Below, one piece after another: positions 13,550-33,500 of a DNA stretch of 64,000 nt (position 1 is its first letter; each line of letters opens with the position of its first letter). The translations under genes were made by a program, and so were the position numbers. The notes under the pieces were generated by a model. The model was given only the letters and a program-made list of their open reading frames with translations, was not told the origin of the DNA and ran no database searches. The DNA is from Gammaproteobacteria bacterium (GTDB lineage: Bacteria > Pseudomonadota > Gammaproteobacteria > Nevskiales > Nevskiaceae): NCBI GenBank assembly GCA_026398875.1, contig JAPLSB010000015.1, positions 62,001 to 126,000 of the forward strand, written 5' to 3'.

Positions 13550-13583
13550 CGAATCGCCATCATCAGTTTGGAGCGGGCAGGCA

Positions 13584-14804: not shown

Positions 14805-14853
14805 GCGCAGCCTCTGACTGCACAGGCATTGCCGGCACCGATGCGCGGCCTGA

Positions 14854-17780: not shown

Positions 17781-17814
17781 GCGGGTACTCCCTGGATCCT
17801 GAAGGTCATCGGGT

Positions 17815-19158
17815 TCACGCGGTGAGCGTCTGGCGCTCGGCCATCGCCTGCTCGAATAGCTGCTGTTCCCGCGTCTTGTGCTCGGTGCTGAAGCGCACGG
17901 CCAGCGCGCAGACCGCCGAGACGGTTACCAGCCCGCCGAGGATCAGCAGGCAGCTCGGTGTATCCGGCGTTGCTTTCAGCAGGAAGCCGGCAGCCACTGC
18001 ACCGACATTGCCGCCGGCACCGATGATTCCAGCGACGCCACCGAGCGCATTGCGATCGATAAACGGCACCAGCGCGTAGGTCGCGCCGCAGGCCATGTGG
18101 GTGAACAGGCCGAAGCTCAGCATCGCGACGATGGCAAGGGCCGCGCTGTCCATCCGCGCCCACCACAGCAGGCCCAGCCCTTCGCCGAGCATCAGCACGA
18201 ACAGCAGCAGGGTGCGGCCATCGAGCCCGCGGATCCGGGCGATGCGATCAGACGCGATGCCCCCGAGCGCACGGGCAAACAGCGCCAGCAAGCCGAAGCT
18301 GCCGGCCGCAAGGCCGGCGGCCTTCAGGCTCAGGCCGAAGCGTTCGACGTAATAGAGCGCTGCGACGTTGTGGATGAAGATCTCCACGCCGAAGCAGGCG
18401 CCATAGGTGATGAACAGCAGCCAGACCCGGTAGTTGCCGCAGGCGCGCTTGAAGCTGCGCAGGCCGGCCTTCCTGCCGCCGTCCGGCATCAGGCCGGTGG
18501 CGCGCAGGCTGGCGTAGTTGCCGGCCGGGCAGTCCTGCGTGTATCGCCAGTAGACCCAGGCCATCACCAGCATCAGCACACCCGGCACCAGCAGCGCGAT
18601 GCGCCAGCCCGCGGATTGCTCGGCCCCGAGCAGCAACAGCGCGGCGACGATCAGCGGCATCAGCGTCTGCGTCGCACCGCCGCCGGCATTGCCCCAGCCA
18701 GCCGCTGCGGCGTTCGCGGTGCCGACGACATTGGGCGCGAACATCACGCTGGTGTGGTACTGCGTGATCACGAAGCTGGCGCCGATCGCGCCGATCGCCA
18801 GCCGGAAGAACAGGAAGCTTTCGTAGCTCTGCGCGGTGGCCACGCCGAACACCGGAATGGCGCCGAACAGCAGCAGGCCGGTGTAGGCCTTGCGCGGACC
18901 ATAACGATCGCAGAGCGGGCCGATCAGCAGCCGCACCAGGATCGTCACTGCAACCGCTGCGATGTTGATGTTGGCAATCTGATCGCGGCTCAGCCCGAAT
19001 TCGCCCTTGATGACCGGCATCAGCGGCGCGCAGGCGAACCACGCGAAGAAGCAGACGAAGAACGCCATCCAGCTGAAGTGGAAGGCACGCATCGCGGGCG
19101 ATGACAGGTCGCGCAGGCGAATGCGGGTGGCTTTGGCAAGCGGTGCAGCAGCAGTCAT
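17815..19158 (-). CDS. narK: NarK/NasA-type nitrate/nitrite transporter (MFS)
   Basis: A 447-residue major facilitator protein with about 12 hydrophobic segments. The nitrate-nitrite porter signatures are present in both halves: AAAGWGNAGGGATQTLMPLI and GIIGAGGNVGAVAAG. It imports nitrate for the assimilatory enzymes encoded downstream. The start at 19158 is preferred to 19170 because GGAG lies six bases upstream. As first gene of the operon it carries the regulatory leader (19159-19241) and the sigma-54-type promoter. Confidence 0.94.
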   Translation of the reverse strand: MTAAAPLAKATRIRLRDLSSPAMRAFHFSWMAFFVCFFAWFACAPLMPVIKGEFGLSRDQIANINIAAVAVTILVRLLIGPLCDRYGPRKAYTGLLLFGAIPVFGVATAQSYESFLFFRLAIGAIGASFVITQYHTSVMFAPNVVGTANAAAAGWGNAGGGATQTLMPLIVAALLLLGAEQSAGWRIALLVPGVLMLVMAWVYWRYTQDCPAGNYASLRATGLMPDGGRKAGLRSFKRACGNYRVWLLFITYGACFGVEIFIHNVAALYYVERFGLSLKAAGLAAGSFGLLALFARALGGIASDRIARIRGLDGRTLLLFVLMLGEGLGLLWWARMDSAALAIVAMLSFGLFTHMACGATYALVPFIDRNALGGVAGIIGAGGNVGAVAAGFLLKATPDTPSCLLILGGLVTVSAVCALAVRFSTEHKTREQQLFEQAMAERQTLTA

Positions 19159-19186
19159 GGTCGGCTCCATCGAGGGACGTGAGATG

Positions 19187-19240
19187 CGCGGACGCCATTG
19201 GCCGCAGGACAACAACTCACGTGATTGCCGTTAACCACGT
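19187..19240 (-). promoter_or_regulatory. ANTAR-type two-hairpin leader of the nitrate assimilation operon
   Basis: Read on the minus strand, hairpin 1 is ACGTGGTT-AACGGC-AATCACGT (19240-19219), eight pairs with one G-U. Hairpin 2 is TGCGGCC-AATGGC-GTCCGCG (19206-19187) with one mismatch. Both loops have six bases, A first and G fourth, as described for RNA targets of ANTAR proteins such as NasT. The 3' arm of hairpin 1 (ACGTGAG, 19222-19216) can instead pair with CTCACGT (19183-19177) close to the ribosome site. I see no U tract, so classical attenuation is not evident in this leader. Confidence 0.6.
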
Positions 19241-19507: not shown

Positions 19508-19553
19508 CAGCCCGGCCATTGCCGCCCGCGCTGCTCCGGACACCGAGGTCCCG
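19508..19553 (+). promoter_or_regulatory. ANTAR-type two-hairpin leader of the TPR gene operon
   Basis: Hairpin 1 has arms CAGCCCGGCC (19508-19517) and GCCCGCGCTG (19524-19533) around the loop ATTGCC; eight of ten positions pair. Hairpin 2 is GGAC-ACCGAG-GTCC (19538-19551). Both loops have A first and G fourth. No clear intrinsic terminator follows before the first coding sequence. Confidence 0.5.
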
Positions 19554-19728: not shown

Positions 19729-21357
19729 ATGAACCGTCTGCTCGCGCTCATGGCGGCTGTGCTGCTGACCCTCGGCAGCGTGCTGACGTATGCGGCACAG
19801 GCTGCCGCGCCGGAGACGGTGATCGGCGAGGCGCTGGCGCTCGATCTGGCTGCCCGTCGCCTGACCGGCGCGCCGCAAGCGGGTTTCACCGTCTATATCG
19901 GCAGTGCAGCAAGCGACCGCTGGCTGCGTGAAGTCTGGGTGCAGGTCGATCGCCAGCCGATGACCCGCTACCTGTTCTCGCAGGCCGAGAGCGAAGCGCT
20001 GCGCAGCGGTGGCCTGCACCTGCTGCTGGCCGACACGCTGACGCCGGGCCAGCATCGGGTGCGCGCTCAGGCCGCCGCCGTGGGGCTCGACCCGCGCCGC
20101 AATGACGACCGCAGCCGCGCCCAGGTCGAAATCGTCATCGATCAGGGTGAAGCGCCCATCGAACTGGAACTGTCCTGGGCCACGGCTGCGTATGTCGGCA
20201 ACACCGCGCTGAAAGCCGCGGTGCGGCAACCAACGGCCGCGGCCGATCCTGCCAGCGCCGTCGCGGCTTCGGACCCGCGCCTGCGGGCCATCCGCTTTCT
20301 CGATGCCACCGGTCGCCGCTATCGCGCCGAGCTGGCATTTCGCCAGTTGCAGATGACCATGCCGTCTGTCGAGCGTCCGCTACGGGTGACTTACAGCGCT
20401 GCGGCGACGCCCGCGAGCCTTGGCAGTGCCGGGCCCTGCGAAGCCGCGCCCAGCCTGTCCTGCGACCGTATCAACGCCACGCTCGGCTATACGCTGCTCG
20501 ATCAGAGCCAAGGCCTGAAGGCAGCCGAAGCGTTCCGCCGCGTGCGGGCGCCCGGGCCGTACGCGACGGCGGCGCTGCTCGGCCTTGGCTGGGCGCTGCT
20601 GGCACCGCCGGACGGCGAGGCCGCTGCGGAAACGGCTGCCGAGCAGCCCGGCCGCGCGTCCCGTCATCCGCTGCGGACGATGCCGCCGAAGGAACGCGAC
20701 GCCGCGATCCGCGCCGCGCTGGTGCCGTGGATCGAGCTGATCGGTCGCGACCCGACCGATCCGGCGGTGCAGGAAGGGCTGGTCGCGATTGCCTGGGCGC
20801 TGAGCACGCTCGGTGCGCAAGTGCAGGCGCAGGACTACTACAACCGCGCGATCAGCCAGCTGACCGAGGTGCTCGGTCACATCGACAAGGCCAAAGCCGA
20901 GCTGGCCACCACGCCGCTGCTGGCCGGCGTCATCGCCAATACGCCGAGCGAGGCCTGGCACTGGTACCTGGCCGATCGCCTGCCCGATCCGCGCTGGTGG
21001 GTGCTGCCGATCAGCGCCGCGCCGGAGACCTTTCACCTGGAAGCGCTGCTGCAACAGCCGGCGTTCCGCGAACGGCTGATGACGCTGCGCGATCTTCACG
21101 AAGCGAAGGCGTCGCTGCTCGAACAGCGGGCGCGCCTGACCACGCTGGCCAGCCCGGATGCAGGCGCGCGGGTCGCCGACATCGACCGGCTGCTGCCGGC
21201 ACTCGATGCCGGCATCGCCGAGCAGATCGGCCAGGCCGACCGGCTGGCGCTGGCGCAGCTGCTGGCAATCAAGAAGCAGACCCAGCAGACGCTGGTCGAG
21301 GCACGCTTCGGACTGGCGCAGCTCTATGACCGGGTGGCCGAGGTCACCACGCCATGA
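19729..21357 (+). CDS. Exported helical-repeat protein of the TPR cluster
   Basis: A 542-residue protein with a signal peptide (MNRLLALMAAVLLTLGSVLT). The mature part is Ala/Leu/Arg-rich and predicted mostly helical. It has TPR-like segments near residues 250-300 (TLGYTLLDQSQGLKAAEAF) and 340-385 (DYYNRAISQLTEVLGHIDKA), and a coiled-coil-like C-terminal quarter rich in Glu, Gln and Leu (EAKASLLEQRARLTTLA). I do not recognise a family with certainty. It overlaps the next gene by four bases (ATGA). Clusters of large TPR proteins like this accompany Glt/Agl-type trans-envelope machines; that link is inference. Confidence 0.75.
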   Translation: MNRLLALMAAVLLTLGSVLTYAAQAAAPETVIGEALALDLAARRLTGAPQAGFTVYIGSAASDRWLREVWVQVDRQPMTRYLFSQAESEALRSGGLHLLLADTLTPGQHRVRAQAAAVGLDPRRNDDRSRAQVEIVIDQGEAPIELELSWATAAYVGNTALKAAVRQPTAAADPASAVAASDPRLRAIRFLDATGRRYRAELAFRQLQMTMPSVERPLRVTYSAAATPASLGSAGPCEAAPSLSCDRINATLGYTLLDQSQGLKAAEAFRRVRAPGPYATAALLGLGWALLAPPDGEAAAETAAEQPGRASRHPLRTMPPKERDAAIRAALVPWIELIGRDPTDPAVQEGLVAIAWALSTLGAQVQAQDYYNRAISQLTEVLGHIDKAKAELATTPLLAGVIANTPSEAWHWYLADRLPDPRWWVLPISAAPETFHLEALLQQPAFRERLMTLRDLHEAKASLLEQRARLTTLASPDAGARVADIDRLLPALDAGIAEQIGQADRLALAQLLAIKKQTQQTLVEARFGLAQLYDRVAEVTTP

Positions 21358-24221
21358 ACCGTCGACACGCGCTGCTTGTGTTGCTCGCGGTCGCGCTGGC
21401 CGCTCGCGGCGCGCCGGGCGCCGATCCCGTTGCCACGGTCGGCTCGACGACGGAAACCAACGGTCTTGAGCGCAACGGCCGCTTCGTCGTGCGCACGCCA
21501 TCGATCCTGCGGCCGGGCATCGATCAGCGGGTGCCGCCGAACGCGCTGGCGGCGATCGCCCAGTACGACCGCATCCTGGAAATCCCGACCAGTGCCGCGA
21601 ACCGCGCCGAGGCCCTGCGCCGCGCGGCCGATCTGCGCGTGCAGCGCGCCGACATCGATGGCGAGATCAACGAGCCGGTATTGCGCAGGGCCATCGCGCT
21701 GTATCAGGCGCTGCTTCGCGAGTCGCCGGACCATCCGTACAACGATCGCGCGCTGTACCAGCTGGCGCGCGCGCAGCAGGCCGTTGGCGAAGTCGATGCC
21801 GCAATCGCCAGCCTGCAGGCGCTGGGTCAGCGCTACCCCCAGTCGATACGCACACCGGACGGCGTGTTCCGCGCGGCTGAGCTGCTGTTTCAGCGCAACC
21901 GCTTTGCCGAGGCCGAGGCGGCTTATCGTCAGGTCCTGGCACTGGGGCCATCGACCCCGTACTTCGCGCCGGCGCAGTACAAGTTCGGCTGGTCGCTGGT
22001 GCGTCAGGAGCGCTACGCGGACGCCACCGCGCCGTTCTTCGCGATCCTTGACCGCGAACTGCCGCCCGGCACGCTTGAAGATTCGCAACAGGCGCTTGCA
22101 GCGCTGCCGCCAGCACGCGCCGACGCGGTGCGTGACGTGCTGAATGTCACCGGCCGTGCACTGGCGGCACTCGGTGGCGGTCGCGGCCTGAACGAACGCT
22201 TCGCGCAGGCCGGCAGCGAGCCGCGCTTCGCTACCTTGCTGTACGCGGCGCTCGCCGCGCAGCTGCTCGAACGGCAGCGCCATCACGATGCTGCCGAGGT
22301 CGATCTGGCCTTCGTCGAGCGGCATCCGCAGCACCCGCGAGCACCAGAATTCGAGGCGCGGGCGATGGCCGCGTACCAGCAGGCGGGTTCCGCCGAAATG
22401 CTGATCGCGGCCAAGCGCCGCTATGTCGAGCGTTACGCACCGGGCAGTGGCTATTGGGGCAGTGCCACGCCGAGTGCGGAGGTGATGACCACCGTTCGCG
22501 ACAGCCTGACCGATCTCGCGCGCCATCACCATGCGCGGGCTCAGACGCGCGCGGACCGCGACGGCGAAGCCCGGCGTCGCGATTTCCTGACTGCCGCCGA
22601 CGGCTATGCGCGCGCGCTGGCGCTGTTCCCGGATCATCCGCAAGCCGCCGAGCTGGCGCTGGCGCAAGCCGATGCCCTGTTCGATGGCGGTCAGCTCGAA
22701 GCTGCCGCGCGCCAGTACGAACGCGCCGCCTATGCGCTGCCGGGCAGCCGGACGGCTAGTCAGTCTCCGGCGACGGCGCTGGCTGCGGTGCAGGCCTGGC
22801 AGCGGCTGGCGAATGAAAGCAGCGGCGCTGCGAAGTCCGCCGCGCTGAAGGAATCCGTCCGCGCCAGCCTGCAGCTGGCCGAAGTATTCCCGACGCATCC
22901 GCAGTGGGCGTTGATCCTGACTCGCGCCGCTGGCGACCTGCTGGCCGGCAATGATCCCGACGGCGCGTCCACGGTCGCCAGCCGGGTGTTGGCGGCCCGA
23001 CCGCCGGCGGCAGCGGAACTGCGGCAGCAACTGCTGGGTATGGTCGCCGATGCCCGCTACCGCCAGAAGCGCTTCGCCGACGCCGAAGCCGCCTACGGCG
23101 AGCTGCTGGCTCTGCTGCCGGCCAACGATGCGCAGCGGCCGCCGGTGGCCGAGCGGCTGGCGGCTGCGGTTTATGAACAGGCCCTTGCCGCGCGTGCTGC
23201 CGGCGATCTCGCTGGTGCGGCGATCGCCTTCCAGCGCGTTGGCGTGCGGGTGCCGGATGCTGCGATTCGCGCCGCCGCCGACTACGACGCGGCCTCCGCC
23301 TATGTCGAGCTGCAGGACTGGACGCGAGCCGCCGACAGCCTGGAAGCGTTCCGCACCCGCTTTCCGGAGCACGCGCTGGCGCTTGATGCGGAGAAAAAGC
23401 TGGCGCTGGTCTACACCCGGAACAGCCAGCCGGCACGCGCCGCGGAGGTCTTTGGCCGCATCGCGCAGCACGAGACGCTGTCGACCGATCTGCGCCGCGA
23501 GGCGCTGTGGCTGTCGGCCAACGACTACCGCCGTGCCGGCGACAGTCGTGCCGCGGCCTTGCAGTTCGAGCGCTATGTGGACCGCTATCCGCAGCCGCTC
23601 GATCAGGCTCAGCAGGCGCGCCGCCATCTGGCCGACATCGCCAGCAGCCAGCTGCGCGATCCGGCGCGCCTGCGGTTCTGGCTGCAGTCGATCGTCGATG
23701 CCGATGGCGACGCGCCGGCCGGACCGCTTGCAGCCGACGCGCTGGCTCGGCGCATCGCTGCCGAGGCCAGTCTTGAACTGGGGCAGGCGGGTGCGGCGCA
23801 GGCCAGTGCGCTGCGCTTGGGCCTGCCGCTGGAAAAGAGCCTGCCGATGCGCCGCACCGCAATCGAGCGCGCGCTGCGCCTGCTTGATCGCGCCGCCGCC
23901 TACGGCCTTGCCGACGTGACCACGGCCGCGACTCATGAACGGGCAACGGTGTGGCGGGCGTTCGCGCGCGCGATCGTGCAATCGGAGCGGCCGGGTGGTC
24001 TGTCGGCCGAAGCGCTGGAGCAGTACCAGCTGCTGCTCGAAGAGCAGGCCAACCCTTTCGAAGAAAAGGCCATGCAGGCGCATGAAACCAATCTCGCTTA
24101 TCTGCGCCAGGGCGTCTGGAACGAGTGGGTGCGCAAAAGCAGCCTTGCGCTCAGCGAGATCGCCCCGGCCCGTTACGGCAAGAACGTTCGTCTGGAGGAT
24201 CGTTATGACGCGATGCACTGA
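21354..24221 (+). CDS. Large exported TPR protein
   Basis: A 955-residue protein with a signal peptide (MNRRHALLVLLAVALAARG) and TPR-type repeats along most of its length. Examples are YQALLRESPDHPYNDRALYQ, AEAAYRQVLALGPSTPYFAP, ARALALFPDHPQAAELALAQ and RYVDRYPQPLDQAQQARRHL. Length and organisation resemble periplasmic TPR scaffolds such as GltD/AgmU-like proteins of gliding-type machines or YbgF/BamD-like adaptors; no catalytic domain is visible. Translational coupling on both sides indicates a shared complex with its neighbours. No MotA/TolQ-like motor subunit is adjacent. Confidence 0.82.
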   Translation: MNRRHALLVLLAVALAARGAPGADPVATVGSTTETNGLERNGRFVVRTPSILRPGIDQRVPPNALAAIAQYDRILEIPTSAANRAEALRRAADLRVQRADIDGEINEPVLRRAIALYQALLRESPDHPYNDRALYQLARAQQAVGEVDAAIASLQALGQRYPQSIRTPDGVFRAAELLFQRNRFAEAEAAYRQVLALGPSTPYFAPAQYKFGWSLVRQERYADATAPFFAILDRELPPGTLEDSQQALAALPPARADAVRDVLNVTGRALAALGGGRGLNERFAQAGSEPRFATLLYAALAAQLLERQRHHDAAEVDLAFVERHPQHPRAPEFEARAMAAYQQAGSAEMLIAAKRRYVERYAPGSGYWGSATPSAEVMTTVRDSLTDLARHHHARAQTRADRDGEARRRDFLTAADGYARALALFPDHPQAAELALAQADALFDGGQLEAAARQYERAAYALPGSRTASQSPATALAAVQAWQRLANESSGAAKSAALKESVRASLQLAEVFPTHPQWALILTRAAGDLLAGNDPDGASTVASRVLAARPPAAAELRQQLLGMVADARYRQKRFADAEAAYGELLALLPANDAQRPPVAERLAAAVYEQALAARAAGDLAGAAIAFQRVGVRVPDAAIRAAADYDAASAYVELQDWTRAADSLEAFRTRFPEHALALDAEKKLALVYTRNSQPARAAEVFGRIAQHETLSTDLRREALWLSANDYRRAGDSRAAALQFERYVDRYPQPLDQAQQARRHLADIASSQLRDPARLRFWLQSIVDADGDAPAGPLAADALARRIAAEASLELGQAGAAQASALRLGLPLEKSLPMRRTAIERALRLLDRAAAYGLADVTTAATHERATVWRAFARAIVQSERPGGLSAEALEQYQLLLEEQANPFEEKAMQAHETNLAYLRQGVWNEWVRKSSLALSEIAPARYGKNVRLEDRYDAMH

Positions 24222-24876
24222 CGTGCTGTCGATGGCGATGGCGGCCGTGCTGCTGACCGCCTGCAGCAGCGCACCGGTGCGCAAGCCTGCGCCGCTGCGC
24301 GCCAGCAAGCCGGCTTCGCCGCCGCCGCTTGCCGTCGCGGCACCGGCGCTTGCGCCATCGGCCAGCGGCAAGCCGCCGGCCGACGAGCGCTTCCGCAATG
24401 CCTTGGGCCTGATGGCTGACCATCGCCCGCAGGAAGCCCAGGCCGCGCTGCAAAGTCTGCTGAAGGACTACCCGGACTTGTCCGGCCCGCTGACCGATGC
24501 CGGGATTCTTTACGCACGCGCCGGACAGCGCGACAAGGCGATGGCCCACTTCGCGCGCGCCATTCAGGCCAATCCGGCCAATGTCGTGGCCTTGAACTGG
24601 AATGGTGCGCTGGTTCGCGACAGCGGCGATTTCACTCGCGCCGAAGCGCTCTGGCGGCAGGCGCTGGCAGTGCAGCCGGACTATCCGGCTGCGCTCCTGA
24701 ATCTGGCGATCTTGTACGACGTGTCGATGCATCGCCCGCAGGATGCGCTGACTTGCTACCGCCGCTATCTGGCCCTGATCGGCAAGGACGATCTGATCGT
24801 CAGCGCCTGGGTGCGCGAACTCGAAGGACGGTCTTCGCAGATGGCCGCCGCAGGCGCTGAAGGGGTGGCGCGATGA
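24205..24876 (+). CDS. TPR lipoprotein
   Basis: A 223-residue protein with a lipoprotein signal (lipobox LLTAC, Cys near residue 20), a Pro/Ala-rich linker (about 25-55) and at least three TPR units (LMADHRPQEAQAALQSLLKD, GILYARAGQRDKAMAHFARA, DSGDFTRAEALWRQALAVQP). The start at 24205 has TGGAGG seven bases upstream and overlaps the preceding gene by 17 bases. A longer frame upstream lies entirely within that gene. It is probably anchored to the outer membrane and contacts the large TPR protein; this is inference. Confidence 0.85.
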   Translation: MTRCTDVLSMAMAAVLLTACSSAPVRKPAPLRASKPASPPPLAVAAPALAPSASGKPPADERFRNALGLMADHRPQEAQAALQSLLKDYPDLSGPLTDAGILYARAGQRDKAMAHFARAIQANPANVVALNWNGALVRDSGDFTRAEALWRQALAVQPDYPAALLNLAILYDVSMHRPQDALTCYRRYLALIGKDDLIVSAWVRELEGRSSQMAAAGAEGVAR

Positions 24877-25190
24877 ACTCGGCGTGCCGGCTTGCCGCCC
24901 TGCTGCCGATGCTGGCGTACGGCGTTCAGGCCGCCCCGCACGTGACATCGGCTGCGCCGCCGTCGGCACCGCGCGAGATCGGCACCACCATCGTCGGCGA
25001 CAGCGATGCCGCAATTGGCCTGTACCTGACGCCGTGGAGCGATGAAGCGCCGCTGCCACCGAGCGGCAGTCCGGCCAACTTCACGATCGAGCCGACCGAG
25101 GCCGACCCGCTCGCCGATCGCGCCCGCAGCGAAGCGCTGGAGAGCATCGACAGTCACCGACGTGCGCGGCGTCAGTCGTATGGCAACTGA
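24873..25190 (+). CDS. Small exported protein ending the TPR operon
   Basis: A 105-residue protein with a signal peptide (cleavage near VQA-AP) and a short mature part containing EIGTTIVGDSDAAIGLYLTP and an acidic/basic tail. I do not recognise a named family, although the IVG...IGLYLTPW pattern looks conserved and not random. It overlaps the TPR lipoprotein gene by four bases (ATGA), so it belongs to the same operon. The sigma-54-type promoter of the next gene lies 140 bases downstream. Confidence 0.7.
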   Translation: MNSACRLAALLPMLAYGVQAAPHVTSAAPPSAPREIGTTIVGDSDAAIGLYLTPWSDEAPLPPSGSPANFTIEPTEADPLADRARSEALESIDSHRRARRQSYGN

Positions 25191-25330
25191 ATGCTCACCC
25201 TCAACGCCTGTGCATGGTGTCGCGGAGCGCGGTCGCCGATTGCGGCGCGCACGGCCGATGCGGATTGCACTGCTTGCCGCGCCGGTCGGCGTGACGCCGC
25301 CGCCGTCATGGGTGTGGCGAACGTCAAACG

Positions 25331-25346
25331 TGGCATATCAATTGCT
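25331..25346 (+). promoter_or_regulatory. Sigma-54-type promoter of the OmpA-cupredoxin gene
   Basis: TGGCATATCAATTGCT matches the -24/-12 consensus, with GG and GC 12 bases apart. The predicted RNA start is near 25357, 16 bases before the first leader hairpin. Confidence 0.75.
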
Positions 25347-25372
25347 TAATTGATTTCACAGCAGCAGCACAA

Positions 25373-25414
25373 GATCGGCCAACGACGCCTGATCCACGGA
25401 CGATGAAGTCCATG
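25373..25414 (+). promoter_or_regulatory. ANTAR-type two-hairpin leader of the OmpA-cupredoxin gene
   Basis: Hairpin 1 has arms GATCGGCC and GCCTGATC around the loop AACGAC (25381-25386), with a mismatch at the second pair from the loop. Hairpin 2 has arms CACGGAC and GTCCATG around GATGAA (25402-25407). G is fourth in both loops; the first base is A in one and G in the other. The 3' arm of hairpin 2 (25408-25414) is also the start of the terminator stem, so hairpin 2 and the terminator are mutually exclusive. Confidence 0.7.
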
Positions 25415-25455
25415 CGCGAGGAGAGGATCCGTTCTCCATGCGCGTGGACTTTTTT
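25408..25455 (+). terminator. Leader terminator upstream of the OmpA-cupredoxin gene
   Basis: The left arm GTCCATGCGCG-A-GGAGAG (25408-25425) pairs with 25432-25449 around the loop GATCCG, with one A-A mismatch and a few G-U pairs. Six T follow (25450-25455). It lies 35 bases before the start codon, inside the leader, so it must act as an attenuator. Confidence 0.88.
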
Positions 25456-25489
25456 CTTTGCCCTAAACGATCAAGCCATCTGGAGCCTT

Positions 25490-26878
25490 ATGAAATCCTT
25501 CACGCGCCGTCTGATCCCCGCCGTGATCGCGGCAAGCCTGCTCAGCCCGATGTTCAGTTCGCCGGCCAGCGCCGACGACCTCGCGCCGTACCATCTCGCG
25601 CCAATGGGCTCGTACGTGCTGGCCGATGACGGCCGCGGCACCGGCAATGGCATCGGCGGAACGCTGGCGCTGGGTGCTCATCTCGCGGCACTGGTCGACC
25701 TCGAACTGCGCGGCAGTTTCATCAACTTCGGCAGCCAGGATGGTTCGGGTTCGTCGAAGCTTGGCGCCGGTGGCTTCGGCGTCAACGTCTACCTGTTCCG
25801 CGCCATCGGCGGCAGCGGCCTGTACATCCATGGCGACGTGCAGGGCAGCAAGCGAACGCTGTATCACTACGGTGCCGGCTACGAATTGATGTTCGGCGGC
25901 TTCGGGCTGCGCGCCGAAGGCCTGATCCGCAACGAGCAGTTCGAGCATCACGAGCCGATGATCAACGTCGGCCTGCGCATTCCGTTTGGCAGCAATCCGC
26001 CGAAGCCGGTGTTCGTGCCGCCACCGCCGCCGCCGCCGAAGGAGGAAGCGGTGATCGCGCCGCCACCGCCGCCGCCTCCACAGCCGCCGCCGTGCCAGGG
26101 CAGCGAGGCCGGTTCGTCGTTGTCGCTCGATGGCTGCAACAAGGGCGACAACATCGTGCTGCGCGGGGTCAACTTCGAATTCGACAAGGACGTGCTGACC
26201 GTCAACGCGACTGTCCTGCTCGATCAGGTGGCCGCCGCGCTGGCCCGTCGCCCGGATATCAAGGTCGAGATCGGTGGCCATACCGATGCCAAGGGATCGG
26301 TGGCCTACAACAAGAAGCTTTCCGAACGCCGCGCCGCGTCGGTGCGCGCCTATCTGGTGCAGAAAGGCGTCAGCGAAGATCGGATCACGTCCGTCGGCTA
26401 CGGCAAGGTCGTCGCCATCGCGACCAATGACACCGACGAGGGTCGCGCGCTCAATCGACGCGTGGAGTTGACCGTCACCGATGCTGATCGCGCGGCCGGT
26501 GGCGTGATCAGCGAACAGGCAGGCAAGGCCGACCAAGTGGTGCTGCCGCCGGTCGAGGACCAGATGCCGGCCGATGGAGCCGCTGCAATGGCGCCGGCGC
26601 CGGTCGCGACGGCACCTGCTGCAGCAGCGGCGCTCGCCAACGCGGCAGTGTCGATCATCGATTACGAATACCAGCCCAAGCTGATCACGGTGAAAGCGGG
26701 TGGCACGGTGACGTGGACCAACAACGATCGCGTCACGCACACGGTCCGTTTCGATGACACCGAAATCAAGGTGAAGTCGGCGGGCACCTACAGCCGGAGC
26801 TACCCACAGCCCGGCACCTTCGAATATCGCTGCGGCATACATCCCACGATGTTCGGTTCCGTGGTGGTTGTCCCCTGA
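25490..26878 (+). CDS. OmpA-family outer-membrane protein with C-terminal type 1 copper domain
   Basis: A 462-residue exported protein in four parts: a signal peptide (about 1-28), a small beta-barrel-like N-terminal domain (30-165), a proline-rich hinge (about 170-205, runs of up to seven Pro), and an OmpA C-terminal peptidoglycan-binding domain (about 220-335, with NFEFDKDVLT, GHTDAKGS, NKKLSERRAASVRAYL and NRRVELTV). A fifth segment (about 385-462) is a plastocyanin-like domain with VKAGGTVTWTNND and the full copper ligand set His417, Cys448, His451 and Met454 in CGIHPTM. So an electron-transfer or copper domain is tethered to the outer membrane and cell wall. The gene has its own sigma-54-type promoter and attenuated leader. 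Confidence 0.9.
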   Translation: MKSFTRRLIPAVIAASLLSPMFSSPASADDLAPYHLAPMGSYVLADDGRGTGNGIGGTLALGAHLAALVDLELRGSFINFGSQDGSGSSKLGAGGFGVNVYLFRAIGGSGLYIHGDVQGSKRTLYHYGAGYELMFGGFGLRAEGLIRNEQFEHHEPMINVGLRIPFGSNPPKPVFVPPPPPPPKEEAVIAPPPPPPPQPPPCQGSEAGSSLSLDGCNKGDNIVLRGVNFEFDKDVLTVNATVLLDQVAAALARRPDIKVEIGGHTDAKGSVAYNKKLSERRAASVRAYLVQKGVSEDRITSVGYGKVVAIATNDTDEGRALNRRVELTVTDADRAAGGVISEQAGKADQVVLPPVEDQMPADGAAAMAPAPVATAPAAAAALANAAVSIIDYEYQPKLITVKAGGTVTWTNNDRVTHTVRFDDTEIKVKSAGTYSRSYPQPGTFEYRCGIHPTMFGSVVVVP

Positions 26879-27046
26879 CGATGGTCGCCGCCATCAACGG
26901 TTCGCTGGCGGAAGCGGGGTCATGCATGAAACGCCTTACAGCTCGGGTTTACTGGAATGAAAGCACAGACTTTCGATTCACCATCAGCAACACGCGCCTT
27001 GCAGGTCACGGCAAGGACTGCCATCAGCCGTGACAAGGCCGGCGCG

Positions 27047-27637
27047 ATGAAACACGCGAACCGCGGCTTGCGGGTGATGCTGGTCGATGACGATCAAGCC
27101 CGACTCGCGATGATGGAACAGGCGCTGGTCGCCGAAGGCCACGTGATCGTCGTGCGTCTCGATGCGCAGGCCGACCTGCTGGCCGGCGTGACCCTGCATC
27201 AGCCCGACGTGATCTTCATCGATGTCGATGCGCCGAGTCGCGACACGCTGGAATCGCTGGGACAGATTCACCGCGAACGGCCACGACCGATCGTGCTGTT
27301 CGCAGCGCGCAGCGATGCCGAAACCGCGCATCGAGCGGTTCATGCCGGAGTCAGTGCCTATGTCGTCGACGGCCTGCATCCGACGCGCCTGAGCGCGCTG
27401 CTGGATGTCGCGATCGCACGCTTCGAAGTGCATCAGGCGCTGAGTCGCGAATTGTCGGCGGCCAATGCGCGGCTTGCCGACCAGCGCGACATCGAGAAGG
27501 CCAAGGGCATGCTGATGAAGCGGCGCAAGATCGACGAGGACGAGGCGTACGGAATGCTTCGCAAGATGGCGATGGACCGCAAGCAGAGAATCGGCGATTA
27601 CGCGCGCCTGCTGCTGGCCGCGTCCGATCTGCTGTAG
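27047..27637 (+). CDS. nasT: Nitrate-responsive ANTAR antiterminator
   Basis: A 196-residue cytoplasmic regulator. The N-terminal pseudo-receiver domain (about 8-125) contains MLVDDDQARL and VIFIDVDAPSRD. The C-terminal ANTAR RNA-binding domain (about 140-193) has RDIEKAKGMLMKRRKIDEDE and AYGMLRKMAMD, a near-perfect fit to the family pattern. In known systems NasT binds two-hairpin leaders of nitrate assimilation genes and blocks terminators; NasS holds it inactive until nitrate or nitrite binds. Four candidate targets lie nearby. The start at 27047 is preferred, but an in-frame ATG at 26957 would add 30 residues. nasS starts 20 bases later. Confidence 0.92.
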   Translation: MKHANRGLRVMLVDDDQARLAMMEQALVAEGHVIVVRLDAQADLLAGVTLHQPDVIFIDVDAPSRDTLESLGQIHRERPRPIVLFAARSDAETAHRAVHAGVSAYVVDGLHPTRLSALLDVAIARFEVHQALSRELSAANARLADQRDIEKAKGMLMKRRKIDEDEAYGMLRKMAMDRKQRIGDYARLLLAASDLL

Positions 27638-27657
27638 GTCGAACCTGGATCGGCCTG

Positions 27658-28911
27658 ATGATGAACGGTCTCGAAAAGAGCAGGGTTCGCCTCGGCATGC
27701 TGCCGCTCGCCGATGCCGCGCCCCTGATCGTCGCGCGGTCCTGCGGCTTTTTCGCGCGGCATGGTCTGGACGTGGAGTTGAGTGTCGAGCGTGCCTGGGC
27801 GGCGTTGCGTGACAAGGTCGCCGCCGGCGTGCTCGATGGCGGCCAGATGCTGGCGCCGATGCCGATTGCTGCAACGCTCGGTCTTGATGGCGTGGCGGTG
27901 CCGATGGTCACGGCGATGGTGATGAGCCTGAATGGCAACTCGATCACCGTATCGCGCGCGCTGCACGCCCGCATGGTTCGCTATCTGCCGGAAGGGCCGA
28001 CCGCCGGAAGCTGCGCCACGGCACTTGCTGCCGTGATTGCAGAGCAGCGCGAACGCGGCGGACGCCGCCCGATCTTTGCGCATGTATTCCCGTTTTCGGC
28101 GCACCACTATGAGCTGCGCATGTGGCTGGCCAGCGCCGATATCGATCCGGACAACGATGTGCAGCTCTGCGTCGTGCCACCGTCGCAGATGGTCAGCGAG
28201 CTGGAATCCGGTCGTATCGATGGCTACTGCGTCGGCGAACCGTGGAATGAAGTGGCGCTGCAGCGGGGCGTCGGTGTTGCTGTTGCCAGCAAGCACGAGA
28301 TCTGGAACAACAGCCCCGAAAAGGTGCTCGGCGTCACTCGCGACTGGGCGCAGGAACACCCGAACACGCATCGCGCGATGGTGGCGGCGATGATCGAGGC
28401 GGCACGCTGGCTCGATATCGAAGACAACCGTCACGAAGCCGCGACCCTATTGGTGAGCGAGCACATGCTTGATGCACCGGCTGCGAGCATCTTCGCGTCA
28501 TTGCGCATGCGCACCGGTGGCATCGTGTTCCACCGTGGCGCGGCAACCTATCCATGGCGGTCTCATGCCGTGTGGTTCATTCTCCAGATGCTGCGCTGGA
28601 AGCAATGCTGGCTGGCGCCGAACTTCTCCGATATCGCTTTCGATGTCTATCGCTGCGAAACCTACCGTGAAGCTGCGGCCCTTGTCGGCGAGCCTTGTCC
28701 ACGGGCCGACTACAAATCGGAAGGCGCGCGCTTCATTGGCTCGCCGACGCCGTCCACCGATGGTGGTTCGATCATGCTGGGACCGGATGCGATGCTCGAC
28801 GGCAGCATCTTCGATGCCGCGGATCCACTGGGCTGGCTGAAACTCCAGCGTCATGGCCTGCCAACGGTTGGTTATGCCTCACTGCTGTCGGCGAATGTTC
28901 GTCATTCCTGA
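27658..28911 (+). CDS. nasS: Nitrate/nitrite sensor protein NasS
   Basis: A 417-residue protein resembling the substrate-binding subunits NrtA/CynA of nitrate ABC transporters but without a signal peptide, as expected for the cytoplasmic sensor NasS. Recognisable segments are VRLGMLPLADAAPLIVARSCGFFARHGL (only its first part is cited: VRLGMLPLADAAPLIVA), ESGRIDGYCVGEPWNEVAL and NNSPEKVLGVTRDWA. It should bind nitrate or nitrite and release NasT. The order here is nasT-nasS, whereas nasS-nasT is the more familiar arrangement. No transporter ATPase or permease genes are adjacent. Confidence 0.92.
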   Translation: MMNGLEKSRVRLGMLPLADAAPLIVARSCGFFARHGLDVELSVERAWAALRDKVAAGVLDGGQMLAPMPIAATLGLDGVAVPMVTAMVMSLNGNSITVSRALHARMVRYLPEGPTAGSCATALAAVIAEQRERGGRRPIFAHVFPFSAHHYELRMWLASADIDPDNDVQLCVVPPSQMVSELESGRIDGYCVGEPWNEVALQRGVGVAVASKHEIWNNSPEKVLGVTRDWAQEHPNTHRAMVAAMIEAARWLDIEDNRHEAATLLVSEHMLDAPAASIFASLRMRTGGIVFHRGAATYPWRSHAVWFILQMLRWKQCWLAPNFSDIAFDVYRCETYREAAALVGEPCPRADYKSEGARFIGSPTPSTDGGSIMLGPDAMLDGSIFDAADPLGWLKLQRHGLPTVGYASLLSANVRHS

Positions 28912-28992: not shown

Positions 28993-29040
28993 GTCAACAG
29001 ACGGTGAAACAGTAGTTCGTCAAGCAGCACAATCAAGAAT

Positions 29041-29079
29041 CCAGCCAATGCTGACTGGGTTCATGGACACCGGAGTCCA
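29041..29079 (+). promoter_or_regulatory. ANTAR-type two-hairpin leader of the DUF3034-haemoglobin operon
   Basis: Hairpin 1 is CCAGCC-AATGCT-GACTGG with a mismatch at the second pair from the loop; three further pairs extend it outwards. Hairpin 2 is TGGAC-ACCGGA-GTCCA, perfectly paired. Both loops have six bases with A first and G fourth. The last bases of hairpin 2 (TCCA, 29076-29079) are the first bases of the downstream terminator stem. This is the clearest of the four leaders. Confidence 0.78.
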
Positions 29080-29115
29080 CGCACAGGCAATGCAGCCTGC
29101 GCGTGGATTTTTTTT
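29076..29115 (+). terminator. Leader terminator upstream of the DUF3034-haemoglobin operon
   Basis: TCCACGC-A-CAGGC (29076-29088) pairs with GCCTG-C-GCGTGGA (29095-29107) around the loop AATGCA, with a single A-C mismatch. Eight T follow (29108-29115). It lies 67 bases before the start codon and competes with hairpin 2. Confidence 0.92.
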
Positions 29116-29182: not shown

Positions 29183-30256
29183 ATGAACGGCACTATCAGG
29201 GGATTCGGTTGCAAGTCAGGCATTGTTCTCGCGTTCGCAGCGGGAATCTTTGCGTGTTCCAGTCCGGCGCAGGCCGGCATTTACGATGCCGGCAAGGTGC
29301 TGGCAACCAGCGGCGTCAACATCACCGATGGCGCGGCTGGTGGCGGCATCACGCCATGGGCGGTGATCGCCGGTTATGAAACCAATCAGGGCATCAACGG
29401 CAGCATCCACTACACCTACGCGAATCTGCCGAACTACAGCCTGAATTCGCTAGGCGCATCGGTGGGCTTCTACGATCGCTTCGAACTGTCGTATGCCTAC
29501 GACCTTCTTCCGACCGGTAGCACGTTCAATACCGTTGGCTTGCTGACCAATACGCTGGCCGGCGTCGTGACCCCGGACAGTGGCATTGATCCATTCAATA
29601 CCTCGATCCGGATGGATATCTTTGGTGCCAAGCTGCGCGTGTTTGGTGAATCGATCTACGACTCCGATAGCCTGCTTCCGCAGGTAGCACTCGGTGGCTT
29701 CTACAAGATCAATCACAACGAAGAGCTGATGAAGACGCTGCTGGCCAACAAGACCAAGGACTTCGAGGCTTACGTTGCAATCACCAAGATCTTTTTCCCG
29801 CTCGATCTGCTGGTCAACGTCACGGTGCGTTACACCGCTGCCAACCAGACTGGCCTGACCGGGTTCGGCGGGCCCAACAAGAACAAGCGCGAGTTCCGTC
29901 CGGAGGTGTCGCTTGCATACCTGCTGGCCAAGAACATCGCCATCGGAGCCGAGTATGCGGCGCACGGCAAGAACACCGATGGTCGCGGCGTGGCCGTCGG
30001 CGGCAACATCGATACCTCGGTGCTCGGTTCGATCACCGGTGCACTGAACAACATCGGTGTTGCCGGGCCGGTCGGCAGTCTTGCGAACAATCTCAACGAC
30101 ACGCTGACGCAACGGGAAAGCGACTGGTTCGATGTGTTCTTCGCCTACTTCCCGACCAAGAATCTGTCGTTCGTCGCGGCCTACGCGAACCTCGGCAACA
30201 TCACGCTGACCCCCAAGCAGACCGGTGCGTACTTCTCGGTGCAGGCGAGCTTCTAG
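29183..30256 (+). CDS. DUF3034 family outer-membrane protein
   Basis: A 357-residue exported protein (signal peptide about 1-32, ending PAQAG). It carries the DUF3034 pattern from its start (GKVLATSGVNITDGAAGGGI, TPWAVIAGYETNQG) through many alternating aromatic/hydrophobic beta strands (FELSYAYDLL, LRVFGESIYDSD) to a C-terminal Phe (SVQASF), which is typical of outer-membrane barrels. The function of the family is not established. It is the first gene of a five-gene operon of redox proteins and follows the attenuated leader. A clear ribosome site (AGGAG) precedes 29183. Confidence 0.88.
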   Translation: MNGTIRGFGCKSGIVLAFAAGIFACSSPAQAGIYDAGKVLATSGVNITDGAAGGGITPWAVIAGYETNQGINGSIHYTYANLPNYSLNSLGASVGFYDRFELSYAYDLLPTGSTFNTVGLLTNTLAGVVTPDSGIDPFNTSIRMDIFGAKLRVFGESIYDSDSLLPQVALGGFYKINHNEELMKTLLANKTKDFEAYVAITKIFFPLDLLVNVTVRYTAANQTGLTGFGGPNKNKREFRPEVSLAYLLAKNIAIGAEYAAHGKNTDGRGVAVGGNIDTSVLGSITGALNNIGVAGPVGSLANNLNDTLTQRESDWFDVFFAYFPTKNLSFVAAYANLGNITLTPKQTGAYFSVQASF

Positions 30257-30306
30257 TCGCTTCGCTGTGGTGCGCGTGGTTCGTCATTCATTCCAGGAGA
30301 AAGCAC

Positions 30307-30783
30307 ATGAAGTCATTCAACCGGTTGCTGGCAGGCGGGGCACTGTGTCTGTTATCGATCTCGACCTTCGCCGGGTCCGAGACGCCGGAAGGCAAGGTTC
30401 AGGCGACCTATCCGCCGATTTCATCGGACGCCTATGAAAAGTTCGGTGGCAAGTACGGCATGGATCGCTGGGTGGAGTCGTTGTTCAAGTACATCATGCT
30501 CGACAATCGCATCAACTACATCTTTGCCGAGCACGGCAAGATCGATCGTCAGATCAAGCTGAACCAGCAGCTTGTGGCCGTGATGCTCGGTGCACCAGGC
30601 GTGGAGTATCAGGGCGCGAGCATGAGCGCCGCGCATGCGGAAATGGGCATCACGCTGACGCAGTTCAATGCCGTTGTCGAGGATGCCTATCTGGCCTGCG
30701 AGGATCTGCGTACGCCGTACCACACCTGCAATCAGCTGATTGCAGCGCTTGCTCCATTCAAGCGCTCCATCGTCACACGCTGA
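30307..30783 (+). CDS. Exported group I truncated haemoglobin
   Basis: A 158-residue protein made of a Sec signal peptide (MKSFNRLLAGGALCLLSIST, cleavage near TFA-GS) and a full truncated globin domain. The globin has YEKFGGKYGMDRWVESLF, the proximal His (residue 110) in GASMSAAHAEMGITLTQF, and a C-terminal helix. Two extra Cys (131 and 141) could form a disulfide, which would fit an oxidising compartment. Most truncated haemoglobins are cytoplasmic and handle oxygen or nitric oxide, so an exported one is unusual. It lies 50 bases after the DUF3034 gene in the same operon. Confidence 0.9.
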   Translation: MKSFNRLLAGGALCLLSISTFAGSETPEGKVQATYPPISSDAYEKFGGKYGMDRWVESLFKYIMLDNRINYIFAEHGKIDRQIKLNQQLVAVMLGAPGVEYQGASMSAAHAEMGITLTQFNAVVEDAYLACEDLRTPYHTCNQLIAALAPFKRSIVTR

Positions 30784-30973
30784 CGGCTACACAAGAGCCG
30801 GCCGTCACCTGTTGCGGATCAGAGCCCGGCACTTGCACGCACGTGCAGTGACCGGGCTCACCGTGTTGCTGATGGGGCGCCTGACTGCGCCTTGTTGGCT
30901 GATGCAACGGTTGTTGGCGGCTATCAACGAATGCTGGTCCAGTCGCAGTTGCTTTCCCTTTCGAGATCGACAC

Positions 30974-31552
30974 ATGCGTTTGACTTCACACGATCACCCG
31001 GCAGTTGGATCGACGCCTTCGCGACGTTCGCTGCTGAGATTCATCGGCGCGCTGGCAGGTGGGCTGCTGCTGCCACGGCTATCGTCAGCCGAGGATTTGT
31101 GGACGACCTACCAGACCCCGGCTGCATTTCTTGCTGAAGCCTTTGGGACGCCGCCGGCGCCTGCCGTCCTCGCATTGGACGCGGCAAAGCAGAGTCAGCT
31201 CAGTACCGTTTTTGGCCGTGCCTATCCGCAGTCGCAGTTGCGTTACTGGCGTGCCGGCGGCCGCAGCGCGTGGATCCTTGATGACATCGGCAAGCAGGGC
31301 TATCAGATCACCACCGCCGGTTTCGTGGTCAAGGATGGCGGCATCGATTTCGCGCGCGTTCTGATTTATCGGGAGTCGCGCGGCGAGCAGATTGCCGAGC
31401 CGTCATGGCTGAAGAAGCTGGTCGGGCGCAGGCTCGCCGGCGTGGCGCTTGATCAGCCGATCGACAACGTCTCCGGCGCAACCCTGTCGGTGAAGATGAT
31501 GCAGCGCATGGCGGCGACGGCGCTGCTGCTTGATGCCGTCGCGAAGGTCTGA
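30974..31552 (+). CDS. Exported FMN-binding protein (covalent flavin)
   Basis: A 192-residue protein with a twin-arginine-like signal (SRRSLLRFIGALAGGLLLP, cleavage near SSA-ED) and an FMN_bind domain (about 105-185). The flavinylation site is DNVSGATLS, with Thr170 the expected acceptor of FMN attached by ApbE, whose gene is two genes downstream. It should carry covalently bound FMN in the periplasm and pass electrons. The start at 30974 is used because it gives a clean signal peptide; a longer frame from 30740 overlaps the haemoglobin gene. 190 bases separate it from that gene. Confidence 0.9.
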   Translation: MRLTSHDHPAVGSTPSRRSLLRFIGALAGGLLLPRLSSAEDLWTTYQTPAAFLAEAFGTPPAPAVLALDAAKQSQLSTVFGRAYPQSQLRYWRAGGRSAWILDDIGKQGYQITTAGFVVKDGGIDFARVLIYRESRGEQIAEPSWLKKLVGRRLAGVALDQPIDNVSGATLSVKMMQRMAATALLLDAVAKV

Positions 31553-31554
31553 CC

Positions 31555-32451
31555 ATGTCCGCTCAGACCCGTCCCCCTGTCGATCCGGCGCAGGCCGAAG
31601 GCGCTGCGGTTGCGGACACCGCCGCGTCGGTTTCGGTAGCGGCGCATGACAGCAGGCCGGCCAAGGCATTGCCGCGGCCCAACACCCGGCCTGCGTTCAC
31701 CGCGCAACTGCGCAAGTGGCACCAGCGTTTTGGCCTTGCCGCATCACTGTTCCTGATCTGGCTGGGCAGCAGTGGCGCGATCCTGAGTCGCAGCGACCAG
31801 TTCGGATTCGATGCGATGCGGGTTCGCTGGGACTGGCTGACGGCGTTGTACGGGCTCAGTGCGGAAGCGCCGCGGATGGGCTTCGAGGCACAGGGCCACT
31901 GGATGGCCGCGACTCGGGAAAGCACCTTGCTTGACGCGCGCGTGGTCGAGCCGCGGATTCCGCCGCCGATCGGCTTCGTGCCGCTTGCTGGCGTGACCGG
32001 CAGGCAACTGGTGATTGGCACATCCGAGAGTCTGGTGATCGTCGGTGAAGACGGGGTACGGGTCGATGAACTGCGCGCGCCGATTCTTCCGGTGGCGTCG
32101 CTGCGCCGCATCGGAACGACGGTCGACGGTGGCATCGCGGTTCAGGACTTCGACGCCTTCGAAAGCCGCGATGGCGGCAACACCTGGGTTGCGGTGCTGC
32201 CGCAGTCGGTCAAGTGGTCGCATCCGGCACCGTTGCCGGGCGCGCAGCGGAAGGCGATCGAGCAGTTCGCGAAGCCATCGGTGCTGGTCGAGCAGGTCCT
32301 GATCGACCTGCACAGCGGCCGCCTGTTCGGACCGATCGGCGCATGGATCATCACGCTGGTTGGCGTGCTGGCGCTCGGGCTTTCGATCAGTGGCGTCTGG
32401 TCGTGGTGGCGGATCCGGCAAAGCCGCCAGCGGACTGTGAAGCGCGGATGA
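31555..32451 (+). CDS. PepSY-associated transmembrane protein
   Basis: A 298-residue inner-membrane protein with a polar N-terminal 55 residues, a first helix (FGLAASLFLIWLGSSGAIL), a periplasmic domain of about 170 residues, and a second helix (IGAWIITLVGVLALGLSISG) ending in WSWWRIRQ. This two-helix PepSY_TM layout, with His in LRKWHQRFG and in DLHSGRLFG just before each helix, is typical of proteins that pass electrons across the membrane to flavoproteins. It begins two bases after the FMN-binding gene and overlaps apbE by four bases (ATGA). Confidence 0.85.
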   Translation: MSAQTRPPVDPAQAEGAAVADTAASVSVAAHDSRPAKALPRPNTRPAFTAQLRKWHQRFGLAASLFLIWLGSSGAILSRSDQFGFDAMRVRWDWLTALYGLSAEAPRMGFEAQGHWMAATRESTLLDARVVEPRIPPPIGFVPLAGVTGRQLVIGTSESLVIVGEDGVRVDELRAPILPVASLRRIGTTVDGGIAVQDFDAFESRDGGNTWVAVLPQSVKWSHPAPLPGAQRKAIEQFAKPSVLVEQVLIDLHSGRLFGPIGAWIITLVGVLALGLSISGVWSWWRIRQSRQRTVKRG

Positions 32452-33500
32452 GCGCATCGCATGAATGGATGCCAGAGGGTGCACGGCGAACCGCGCGGGT
32501 GAATTCGTTCAGTCATTTCCTGGTGCGGCAGACGGCCTATCGCGCACGCTTCATCGCGATGGGGACCGAGGTCACGATCACGGTTGCGTCCGATCGCCGT
32601 TCCAAGGCGTCAGTCGAGTGGGCGATGAACGAGGCGCGCAAGCAGCTCATCGACTTTGGTCGCGATGCCTGGGCCTGGGGTGCTGGTGCCGTGGCGGATT
32701 TCAATCGGCAACTGGCAGCAGGCGGCCAGGCGGAGATTCCACCGCACCTGCACGGCCTGTTCGCCAAGGCCTGGGATATCCACCGCAGCAGTGGCGGTCT
32801 GTTCGAGCCGCGGCTGGCCGCACTGATACGGCTATGGGGTTTCGACGATCCCGCAAGGATGCGCCGCGCGCCGCCCGAAGCCACGGAAATCGCCCGGCTG
32901 CACGAGGCGCTCAGGGCAGCGCCGTCATTCGATGGCGGCAAGCACTACGGCCCGGCGCCGCAGACGGGTTGGGATTTCGGCGCACTGGGCAAGGGTTACA
33001 TCGTCGACAAGGCGATCGAAGTGCTGGTCAGCGCCGGTCATGTCAACGCCTTCATCGACGCGGGTGGTCATGTTGCCGTGCGCGGCTCACGTGACGACCG
33101 CCCGTGGCGCACCGGCATTCGCGACCCGTTCGAGTCTGGCGAGCAGGCCTACGTGCTGGCCAGTGTCCAGCCAGGCGATGCTTCGGTGGTCACGCATGGC
33201 GATGATCAGCGTGGTTTCGAGTTCGAAGGTCGACGCTATTCGCATCTGCTCGACCCGGCGAGCGGCTGGCCGGTGCACGGCCTGCGAGCGCTGACCGTGG
33301 TCCACGAGGACGGTGCGCTGGCCGATGCCGCCGGCGCGGCCTTGTTCGTTGCCGGCGCCGAGGCGTGGCCGGCGTTGGCGGCGCGGCTGGGATTGCGACG
33401 CGTGCTGGCCTTGAACGCCGATGGCACGGCCTGCGTCACGCGCGCGCTGGCAAGCGCGTTGTCGTGGAAGCGCGCGATACCGGTGCGGCTGGTCGACTGA
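32448..33500 (+). CDS. apbE: FAD:protein FMN transferase
   Basis: A 350-residue ApbE-family enzyme that transfers FMN from FAD to a Thr in exported flavoproteins. It shows the RFIAMGTEVTITVASD N-terminal strand, FEPRLAALIRLWGF, DFGALGKGYIVDKA (FAD-binding) and the metal-binding HLLDPASGWPVHGL. No clear signal peptide or lipobox is seen at the chosen start, so it may act inside or at the membrane; ApbE enzymes are more often exported. The target is almost certainly the FMN-binding protein two genes upstream. It is the last gene of the operon. Confidence 0.93.
   Translation: MSASHEWMPEGARRTARVNSFSHFLVRQTAYRARFIAMGTEVTITVASDRRSKASVEWAMNEARKQLIDFGRDAWAWGAGAVADFNRQLAAGGQAEIPPHLHGLFAKAWDIHRSSGGLFEPRLAALIRLWGFDDPARMRRAPPEATEIARLHEALRAAPSFDGGKHYGPAPQTGWDFGALGKGYIVDKAIEVLVSAGHVNAFIDAGGHVAVRGSRDDRPWRTGIRDPFESGEQAYVLASVQPGDASVVTHGDDQRGFEFEGRRYSHLLDPASGWPVHGLRALTVVHEDGALADAAGAALFVAGAEAWPALAARLGLRRVLALNADGTACVTRALASALSWKRAIPVRLVD

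Follow-up and report, generated by a model that had tools for sequence, protein, structure and literature searches.

A probable nitrate-linked redox module of the cell envelope with an exported globin in a Nevskiaceae genome

The sequence analyzed is 64,000 nucleotides in length (positions 62,001 to 126,000 of contig JAPLSB010000015.1, assembly GCA_026398875.1, family Nevskiaceae), comes from a freshwater relative of Nevskia, and is referred to here as the window. It contains a module of five genes, all on the plus strand, encoding a DUF3034 protein, an exported globin, a flavin mononucleotide (FMN)-binding protein, a PepSY protein, and an ApbE flavin transferase. The genes are separated by gaps of 50, 190, and 2 nucleotides, followed by a 4-nucleotide overlap (ATGA). 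A preliminary description of this DNA had reported these five closely spaced genes and the kinds of envelope protein they encode; the coordinates agree exactly, and Pfam matches, motifs, and structural models agree with the protein kinds. A nitrate-linked envelope redox module is a well-supported description of the locus.

The DUF3034 gene (29183–30256) encodes an exported protein (Pfam PF11231, 4.8e-78) that is predicted to form a 12-stranded outer-membrane beta-barrel. Its AlphaFold model (pLDDT 72) closes into a barrel, and its best VIA matches are the 12-stranded barrels FapF (Z 19.7) and KdgM (Z 18.9). A role as an amyloid secretor was considered, with FapF as the top fold match, and was dropped because unrelated 12-stranded barrels score nearly as high. 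No amyloid-subunit gene was recognized among the window genes examined. We propose that DUF3034 serves the globin as a channel or scaffold in the outer membrane. With this module, DUF3034 gains a partner (an exported globin adjoins it in nearly all loci examined), a predicted fold, and a testable regulation.

The globin gene (30307–30783) encodes a group-1-type truncated haemoglobin with a Sec-type signal peptide. The protein matches Pfam Bac_globin at 8e-5 (23.3 bits, cut-off 21), and its profile matches trHbN chains at 1e-25 to 1e-28. The proximal histidine, H110, is invariant.

The FMN-binding protein (30974–31552) is probably NqrC-like and carries a twin-arginine signal (SRRSLLR) and a flavinylation motif (DNVSGATLS). 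Its match to Pfam FMN_bind (0.002, 19.1 bits) falls below the cut-off of 22. This weak match is backed by the motif, in which G168, A169, and T170 are invariant in 30 sequences and a serine usually precedes GAT, and by the AlphaFold model (pLDDT 86), for which NqrC and FMN domains are the best PDB matches (Foldseek probability 0.98, with a modest E of 0.018 and TM of 0.46). Several genomes encode, away from the module, an additional and more distantly related paralogue of this protein (E 1e-45 to 1e-62) (G013:C40, G006:C106, G017:C4, G035:C50, G043:C1, G049:C12, and G022:C7).

The PepSY protein (31555–32451) is a short PepSY_TM protein (PF03929, 2.3e-14) with conserved histidines in WHQRFG and DLHSG. 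In alignment, these motifs fall on the first helix and the last helix of FoxB, a PepSY protein of Pseudomonas aeruginosa (PDB 7ABW; PMC10979944). Unlike FoxB, the PepSY protein has only two transmembrane segments, no recognizable PepSY repeat, and a gene linked to that of an FMN protein.

The ApbE flavin transferase (32448–33500; PF02424, 5e-53) has no recognizable signal peptide, and no strong hydrophobic signal segment was found in 20 ApbE proteins examined. Where ApbE is encoded locally, the FMN protein has an RR/KR motif resembling a twin-arginine translocation (Tat) signal at 18 of 19 loci; where it is not, the motif is present at 3 of 11 complete loci (p 2e-4, kinship ignored). The signal-less ApbE and the Tat motif of its substrate suggest that, in this clade, the flavin is probably attached in the cytoplasm before the FMN protein is exported by Tat. 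The flavin-attaching ApbE of the extracytoplasmic chain first described thus probably acts in the cytoplasm. The module provides a case in which flavin may be attached in the cytoplasm ahead of Tat export.

Upstream of the DUF3034 gene, the plus strand of the leader (29037–29115) contains two hairpins and an intrinsic terminator. The P1 hairpin (29037–29062) has the hexaloop AATGCT, with A at position 1, G at position 4, and a closing C:G pair. The P2 hairpin (29064–29079), TGGAC[ACCGGA]GTCCA, has the same A1, G4, and closing C:G. Its 3’ arm doubles as the 5’ arm of the terminator (29076–29115; TCCACGCACAGGC..GCCTGCGCGTGGA plus T8), and the two structures are mutually exclusive. The NasR motif defined by SELEX likewise combines A1 and G4 with a closing C:G, and its second hairpin overlaps the terminator (PMC7496416). 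NasS and NasT separate upon nitrate or nitrite binding, and NasT binds leader RNA (PMC3795266). The target here is an envelope redox operon, whereas in the nas operons controlled by NasT or NasR it is nitrate reductase genes. There is strong support from the sequence for reading 29037–29115 as a textbook ANTAR antiterminator, with the neighboring nasT and nasS genes as the likely regulators. Sixteen DUF3034 leaders, including that of the window, could be aligned. P1 shows compensatory changes at 6 pairs, and the sliding controls fall away. An Rfam scan of the region gave spurious sub-threshold matches only. A simple promoter and terminator scan was not used; it does not list the terminator at 29.1 kb, the stem of which is interrupted.

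A covariance model (R1) was built from DUF3034 leaders only. In a whole-genome scan it found the DUF3034 leader (76 bits) and one further site at 25371–25458 on the plus strand (35.7 bits, E 2e-6). This second antiterminator/terminator site, in which the P2 loop is GATGAA and its position 1 is not A, precedes a gene for an OmpA-type protein with a C-terminal cupredoxin (25490–26878, plus strand) that has the type 1 copper ligand set H, C, H, M. The listed start of this open reading frame (25403) falls within the leader, and the gene was taken from 25490. Between the two ANTAR sites, also on the plus strand, lie genes for a NasT-like receiver-ANTAR antiterminator protein (26957–27637) and a NasS-like nitrate/nitrite sensor (27658–28911; NMT1_2, no signal peptide). 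An assimilatory cluster (10835–19215) is found 6–15 kb upstream on the minus strand. It is composed of nasA (10835–13549), an NADH reductase gene (13584–14804), nirB (15216–17780), and a gene for a narK-type MFS transporter (17815–19215). In relatives, R1 sites recur before DUF3034 and before the OmpA-cupredoxin gene. They are also present before nirB (L179), nrtA-like genes (L180, L193, L124, L051, and L039), a Vitreoscilla-type globin gene (L124), and a family of genes for exported proteins. The sites before nirB, the nrtA-like genes, and the others form an independent test of what the motif means, since they lie outside the leaders used to train the model. The module is very probably induced by nitrate or nitrite, judging from the ANTAR sites, the nasT and nasS genes between them, the nas genes nearby, and the same motif before nirB and nrtA in relatives.

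The relatives sample comprises 61 genomes (the genome of the window and 60 relatives). DUF3034 is present in 31 of them, and a strong match to the FMN protein is present in exactly 28 of those 31; the remaining three are from a single genus in a different family. The FMN protein and globin-linked DUF3034 thus share the same 28 of 61 genomes, which is far beyond chance. All 28 module genomes contain nirB, compared with 8 of the 33 others (Fisher p 1.7e-10, relatedness ignored), and by coordinates 15 of the 28 have nirB no more than approximately 25 kb from the module. A profile scan of named genomes with the FMN protein identified 37 loci, which span Nevskia, Solimonas, Hydrocarboniphaga, Panacagrimonas, Sinimarinibacterium, Stenotrophobium, and relatives, as well as Zhongshania and Spongiibacter. 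Its kinship with these records places the genome of the window in the Nevskia group. The order DUF3034, globin, FMN protein, PepSY is constant in all loci not cut by a contig end, and ApbE is downstream in about half. In a few Solimonas genomes nasT is inserted between the globin and FMN-protein genes, and in Solimonas the FMN gene is preceded by an ANTAR site of its own.

These distributions bear on the preliminary description, which had treated the five genes as one unit linked to nitrate or nitrite use and had named failure to co-occur in relatives as grounds for abandoning that view. The genes do co-occur, in the same genomes and in constant order, and the nitrate link is strong through the ANTAR sites, NasT–NasS, and the neighboring nas genes. 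The five genes form a conserved unit, and the extent of the module is wider than first drawn, as the OmpA-cupredoxin gene, which probably shares its control, adds to it. The 29037–29115 antiterminator, the site at 25371, nasT–nasS (26957–28911), the OmpA-cupredoxin gene, the nas/nir genes, and the lack of a signal in ApbE had been overlooked. Two observations from the loci are recorded here. In Sinimarinibacterium sp. CAU 1509, the DUF3034–globin pair is tandemly duplicated (L127:227-3984). Two moss-derived records titled Rhodospirillales and Verrucomicrobia (L113 and L133) contain Nevskia-like modules and are probably mislabelled or misbinned.

We class the module as a PepSY–ApbE flavin system that includes an exported globin and is very probably controlled by NasT. 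We regard it, with confidence evenly divided, as a cell-envelope electron chain inducible by nitrate or nitrite that would keep the periplasmic globin reduced for chemistry involving nitric oxide (NO) or products of nitrite. The chain can be laid out in steps. It is very likely that nitrate or nitrite frees NasT from NasS, and that NasT binds the two-hairpin leader RNA and blocks the terminator, which would allow read-through into the five-gene operon and the OmpA-cupredoxin gene. Cytoplasmic ApbE would then load the FMN protein with FMN at its SGAT motif before Tat export, a step considered reasonably probable. By analogy with FoxB and other PepSY/ApbE clusters, the two-helix PepSY protein is likely to carry electrons from the membrane (quinol) through a b haem to the periplasmic FMN. 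Whether the FMN protein then reduces the exported globin, the cupredoxin, or both is an evenly poised matter. As to purpose, ferrous periplasmic globin may turn over NO, or reactive nitrogen derived from nitrite, arising from nitrate assimilation; this step, which would make the whole a split flavohaemoglobin outside the cytoplasm, is put forward tentatively and falls somewhat short of probable. If true, an exported globin combined with a nitrate RNA switch and its own flavin chain fed from the membrane would constitute a defense or reductase system, and it would place a globin system in the compartment that first meets external nitrite and NO. Bacterial globins have mostly been assigned cytoplasmic roles.

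The closest working analogue in logic is the NasT-controlled bjgb-flp pair of Bradyrhizobium, a globin and a flavoprotein that remove NO made by NasC during nitrate assimilation (PMC4724949). In the narK-bjgb-flp-nasC arrangement, the globin and a flavoprotein reductase are co-expressed with nitrate assimilation genes under NasS–NasT. Bjgb and Flp are a cytoplasmic single-domain globin (PF00042) and an FAD/NADH flavoprotein, whereas the module has an exported truncated globin, a protein of the covalent-FMN type, a PepSY membrane protein, an outer-membrane barrel, and a cupredoxin, and it is not a member of that system. PepSY-like flavinylated systems (PMC8238504) also combine PepSY_TM, ApbE, and an exported substrate with an SGAT motif in one cluster. 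Their usual, though not universal, substrate is DUF2271, with DUF4198 and iron links, while the substrate of the module is FMN_bind/NqrC-like; a globin, DUF3034, and NasT control are undescribed there, and the ApbE of the module has no signal peptide. Searches for published work pairing globin with DUF3034, or truncated haemoglobin with either PepSY or ANTAR, found nothing relevant, within incomplete literature coverage, which agrees with the earlier impression that the module is undescribed. A retron paper naming DUF3034 was set aside, its context being DUF3037.

The architecture quinol–haem–FMN–globin would also suit a periplasmic terminal reductase, in which quinol electrons pass through the PepSY and FMN proteins to a globin that reduces nitrite, NO, or O2 in a respiratory rather than protective role. 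A like role has been proposed for the truncated-globin cytochromes of cable bacteria (reported in PMC11976967). The nearby nitrate genes, however, are assimilatory (nasA, nirB) and not respiratory, and high reductive flux would not be expected from a small globin with a single haem. The respiratory role is rated as improbable.

Several observations weigh against the preferred reading, that of a chain keeping the globin reduced for NO or nitrite-derived chemistry, and they are given here with the remaining alternatives. In the globin alignment the distal residues are Phe at B10, Gln at E7, and Asn at E11. The B10 Phe aligns with Tyr25 of the Tetrahymena truncated globin, and Tyr B10, present in most truncated globins (PMC4720485), is absent, which casts doubt on tight O2 binding and on NO dioxygenation of the classical kind. 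The narK-nirB-nasA operon of the window has no clear ANTAR site, just one unconvincing hexaloop hairpin. Zhongshania and Spongiibacter keep the four genes from DUF3034 to PepSY with no ANTAR sites and no local NasT. The 190-nucleotide gap between the globin and FMN-protein genes (30784–30973) contains two strong RNA hairpins and no T tract (z −2.0), possibly an attenuator or processing site. These hairpins, together with the Solimonas ANTAR site before the FMN gene, suggest two transcription units. The same gap, and the Solimonas NasT and separate ANTAR site between the halves, would fit co-located but independent genes, with DUF3034–globin and FMN–PepSY–ApbE sharing regulation only. Both halves, however, are present in exactly the same 28 genomes and are contiguous in two orders of bacteria, and functional independence of the halves is judged a slim prospect.

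Also to be set against a globin-reducing chain is the wider distribution of the pair. Wherever the phylum sample contains an intact DUF3034 gene, a truncated globin gene lies next to it, and in most Pseudomonadota the pair occurs without an FMN or PepSY partner, from which it follows that the globin has a function independent of this reductase. Outside the clade, approximately 33 of 42 DUF3034–globin loci include a cupredoxin and a dCache-HAMP-GGDEF-EAL receptor. The cupredoxin of this wider family, often annotated as a methylamine utilization protein, has the H, C, H, M ligands. The DUF3034–globin–cupredoxin–dCache–GGDEF–EAL cluster is widespread (L061, L062, L063, and phylum loci L064-L101) and apparently undescribed, subject to an incomplete literature search. 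These clusters share with the module DUF3034, an exported globin, and a type 1 copper-ligand cupredoxin. They differ in that a receptor for cyclic di-GMP (c-di-GMP) replaces FMN–PepSY–ApbE, the two globin types have different cysteine pairs, and no R1 site was found at approximately 40 DUF3034 loci of other Pseudomonadota lacking the FMN part (best E 0.047).

This receptor is the basis for a sensing alternative, in which globin, cupredoxin, and barrel form a periplasmic sensor of O2, NO, or redox state whose output in most Pseudomonadota is c-di-GMP turnover, and which in this clade is rewired to, or reset by, the FMN–PepSY chain. The window module has no GGDEF, EAL, kinase, or chemoreceptor gene, and a flavin chain and ApbE of its own would be of little use to a sensor; sensing is held to be quite unlikely. 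With a GGDEF-EAL receptor standing in place of FMN–PepSY–ApbE in the wider family, the core is the barrel, exported globin, and cupredoxin, and the FMN–PepSY–ApbE chain and the probable NasT control are the clade's own addition. The electron-chain reading in its fullest form, a split extracytoplasmic flavohaemoglobin with a nitrate-switched, quinol-fed PepSY-haem/FMN chain set on a DUF3034–globin–cupredoxin core otherwise coupled to c-di-GMP signalling, is a possibility that we consider doubtful.

The neighborhood of the module includes genes that the NO chain does not explain, which also counts against it. In Zhongshania, Solimonas, and other genomes of the Nevskia group, the module has ExbB-ExbD-TonB and TPR genes as neighbors. 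In relatives (L103, L104, L105, L112, L115, L118, and L121), ExbB-ExbD-ExbD-TonB lies between a TPR lipoprotein gene and the OmpA-cupredoxin or DUF3034 gene. The corresponding segment of the window (24876–25371) has no ExbB-ExbD-TonB, only a small exported open reading frame (24874–25191). The main rival, reductive uptake of metals, is so placed because PepSY–ApbE clusters are often iron-linked and TonB-ExbB-ExbD adjoins the module in several relatives. Here the PepSY–FMN chain would reduce iron(III) or copper(II), as ions or chelates, in the periplasm while nitrate is assimilated by enzymes that need much iron. The globin and cupredoxin would be carriers or handlers of haem and copper, and TonB-ExbBD would energize uptake across the outer membrane. 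Links to iron reduction, Fur regulation, and TonB receptors are known for PepSY/ApbE clusters and FoxB (PMC8238504), and a type 1 copper protein is probably co-regulated with the module. Set against this, the operon has no metal transporter, siderophore receptor, or VIT1; control is very probably by NasT and nitrate and not visibly by Fur; the window locus has lost ExbB-ExbD-TonB; and a globin occurs in no described PepSY iron system. Metal acquisition is an unlikely reading. A plain iron-reduction system was also considered and was kept as this rival.

Further genes of the neighborhood were noted. On the plus strand of the window, 19729–24876 encodes an exported 540-amino-acid protein without a Pfam match, a 955-amino-acid TPR protein, and a TPR lipoprotein. 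Homologues of these genes adjoin the module in many relatives, where ANTAR sites precede the homologues of the 540-amino-acid protein. A candidate third, degenerate ANTAR site (19509–19551, plus strand; P2 GGAC[ACCGAG]GTCC, no T tract) precedes this operon in the window. Its R1 match is doubtful (E 0.03-0.09), and the homologous genes in relatives have clear sites. Small exported proteins consisting almost wholly of Leu/Gly/Ser/Pro repeats are encoded near the module at L034:12109-12771 (minus strand), L181:12858-13373 (plus strand), and L121:5991-6401 (minus strand), two of them preceded by an ANTAR site. SLT transglycosylase genes lie near ANTAR-like R1 matches in two relatives (L182:1158-2429 and L186:3446-4468, both on the minus strand).

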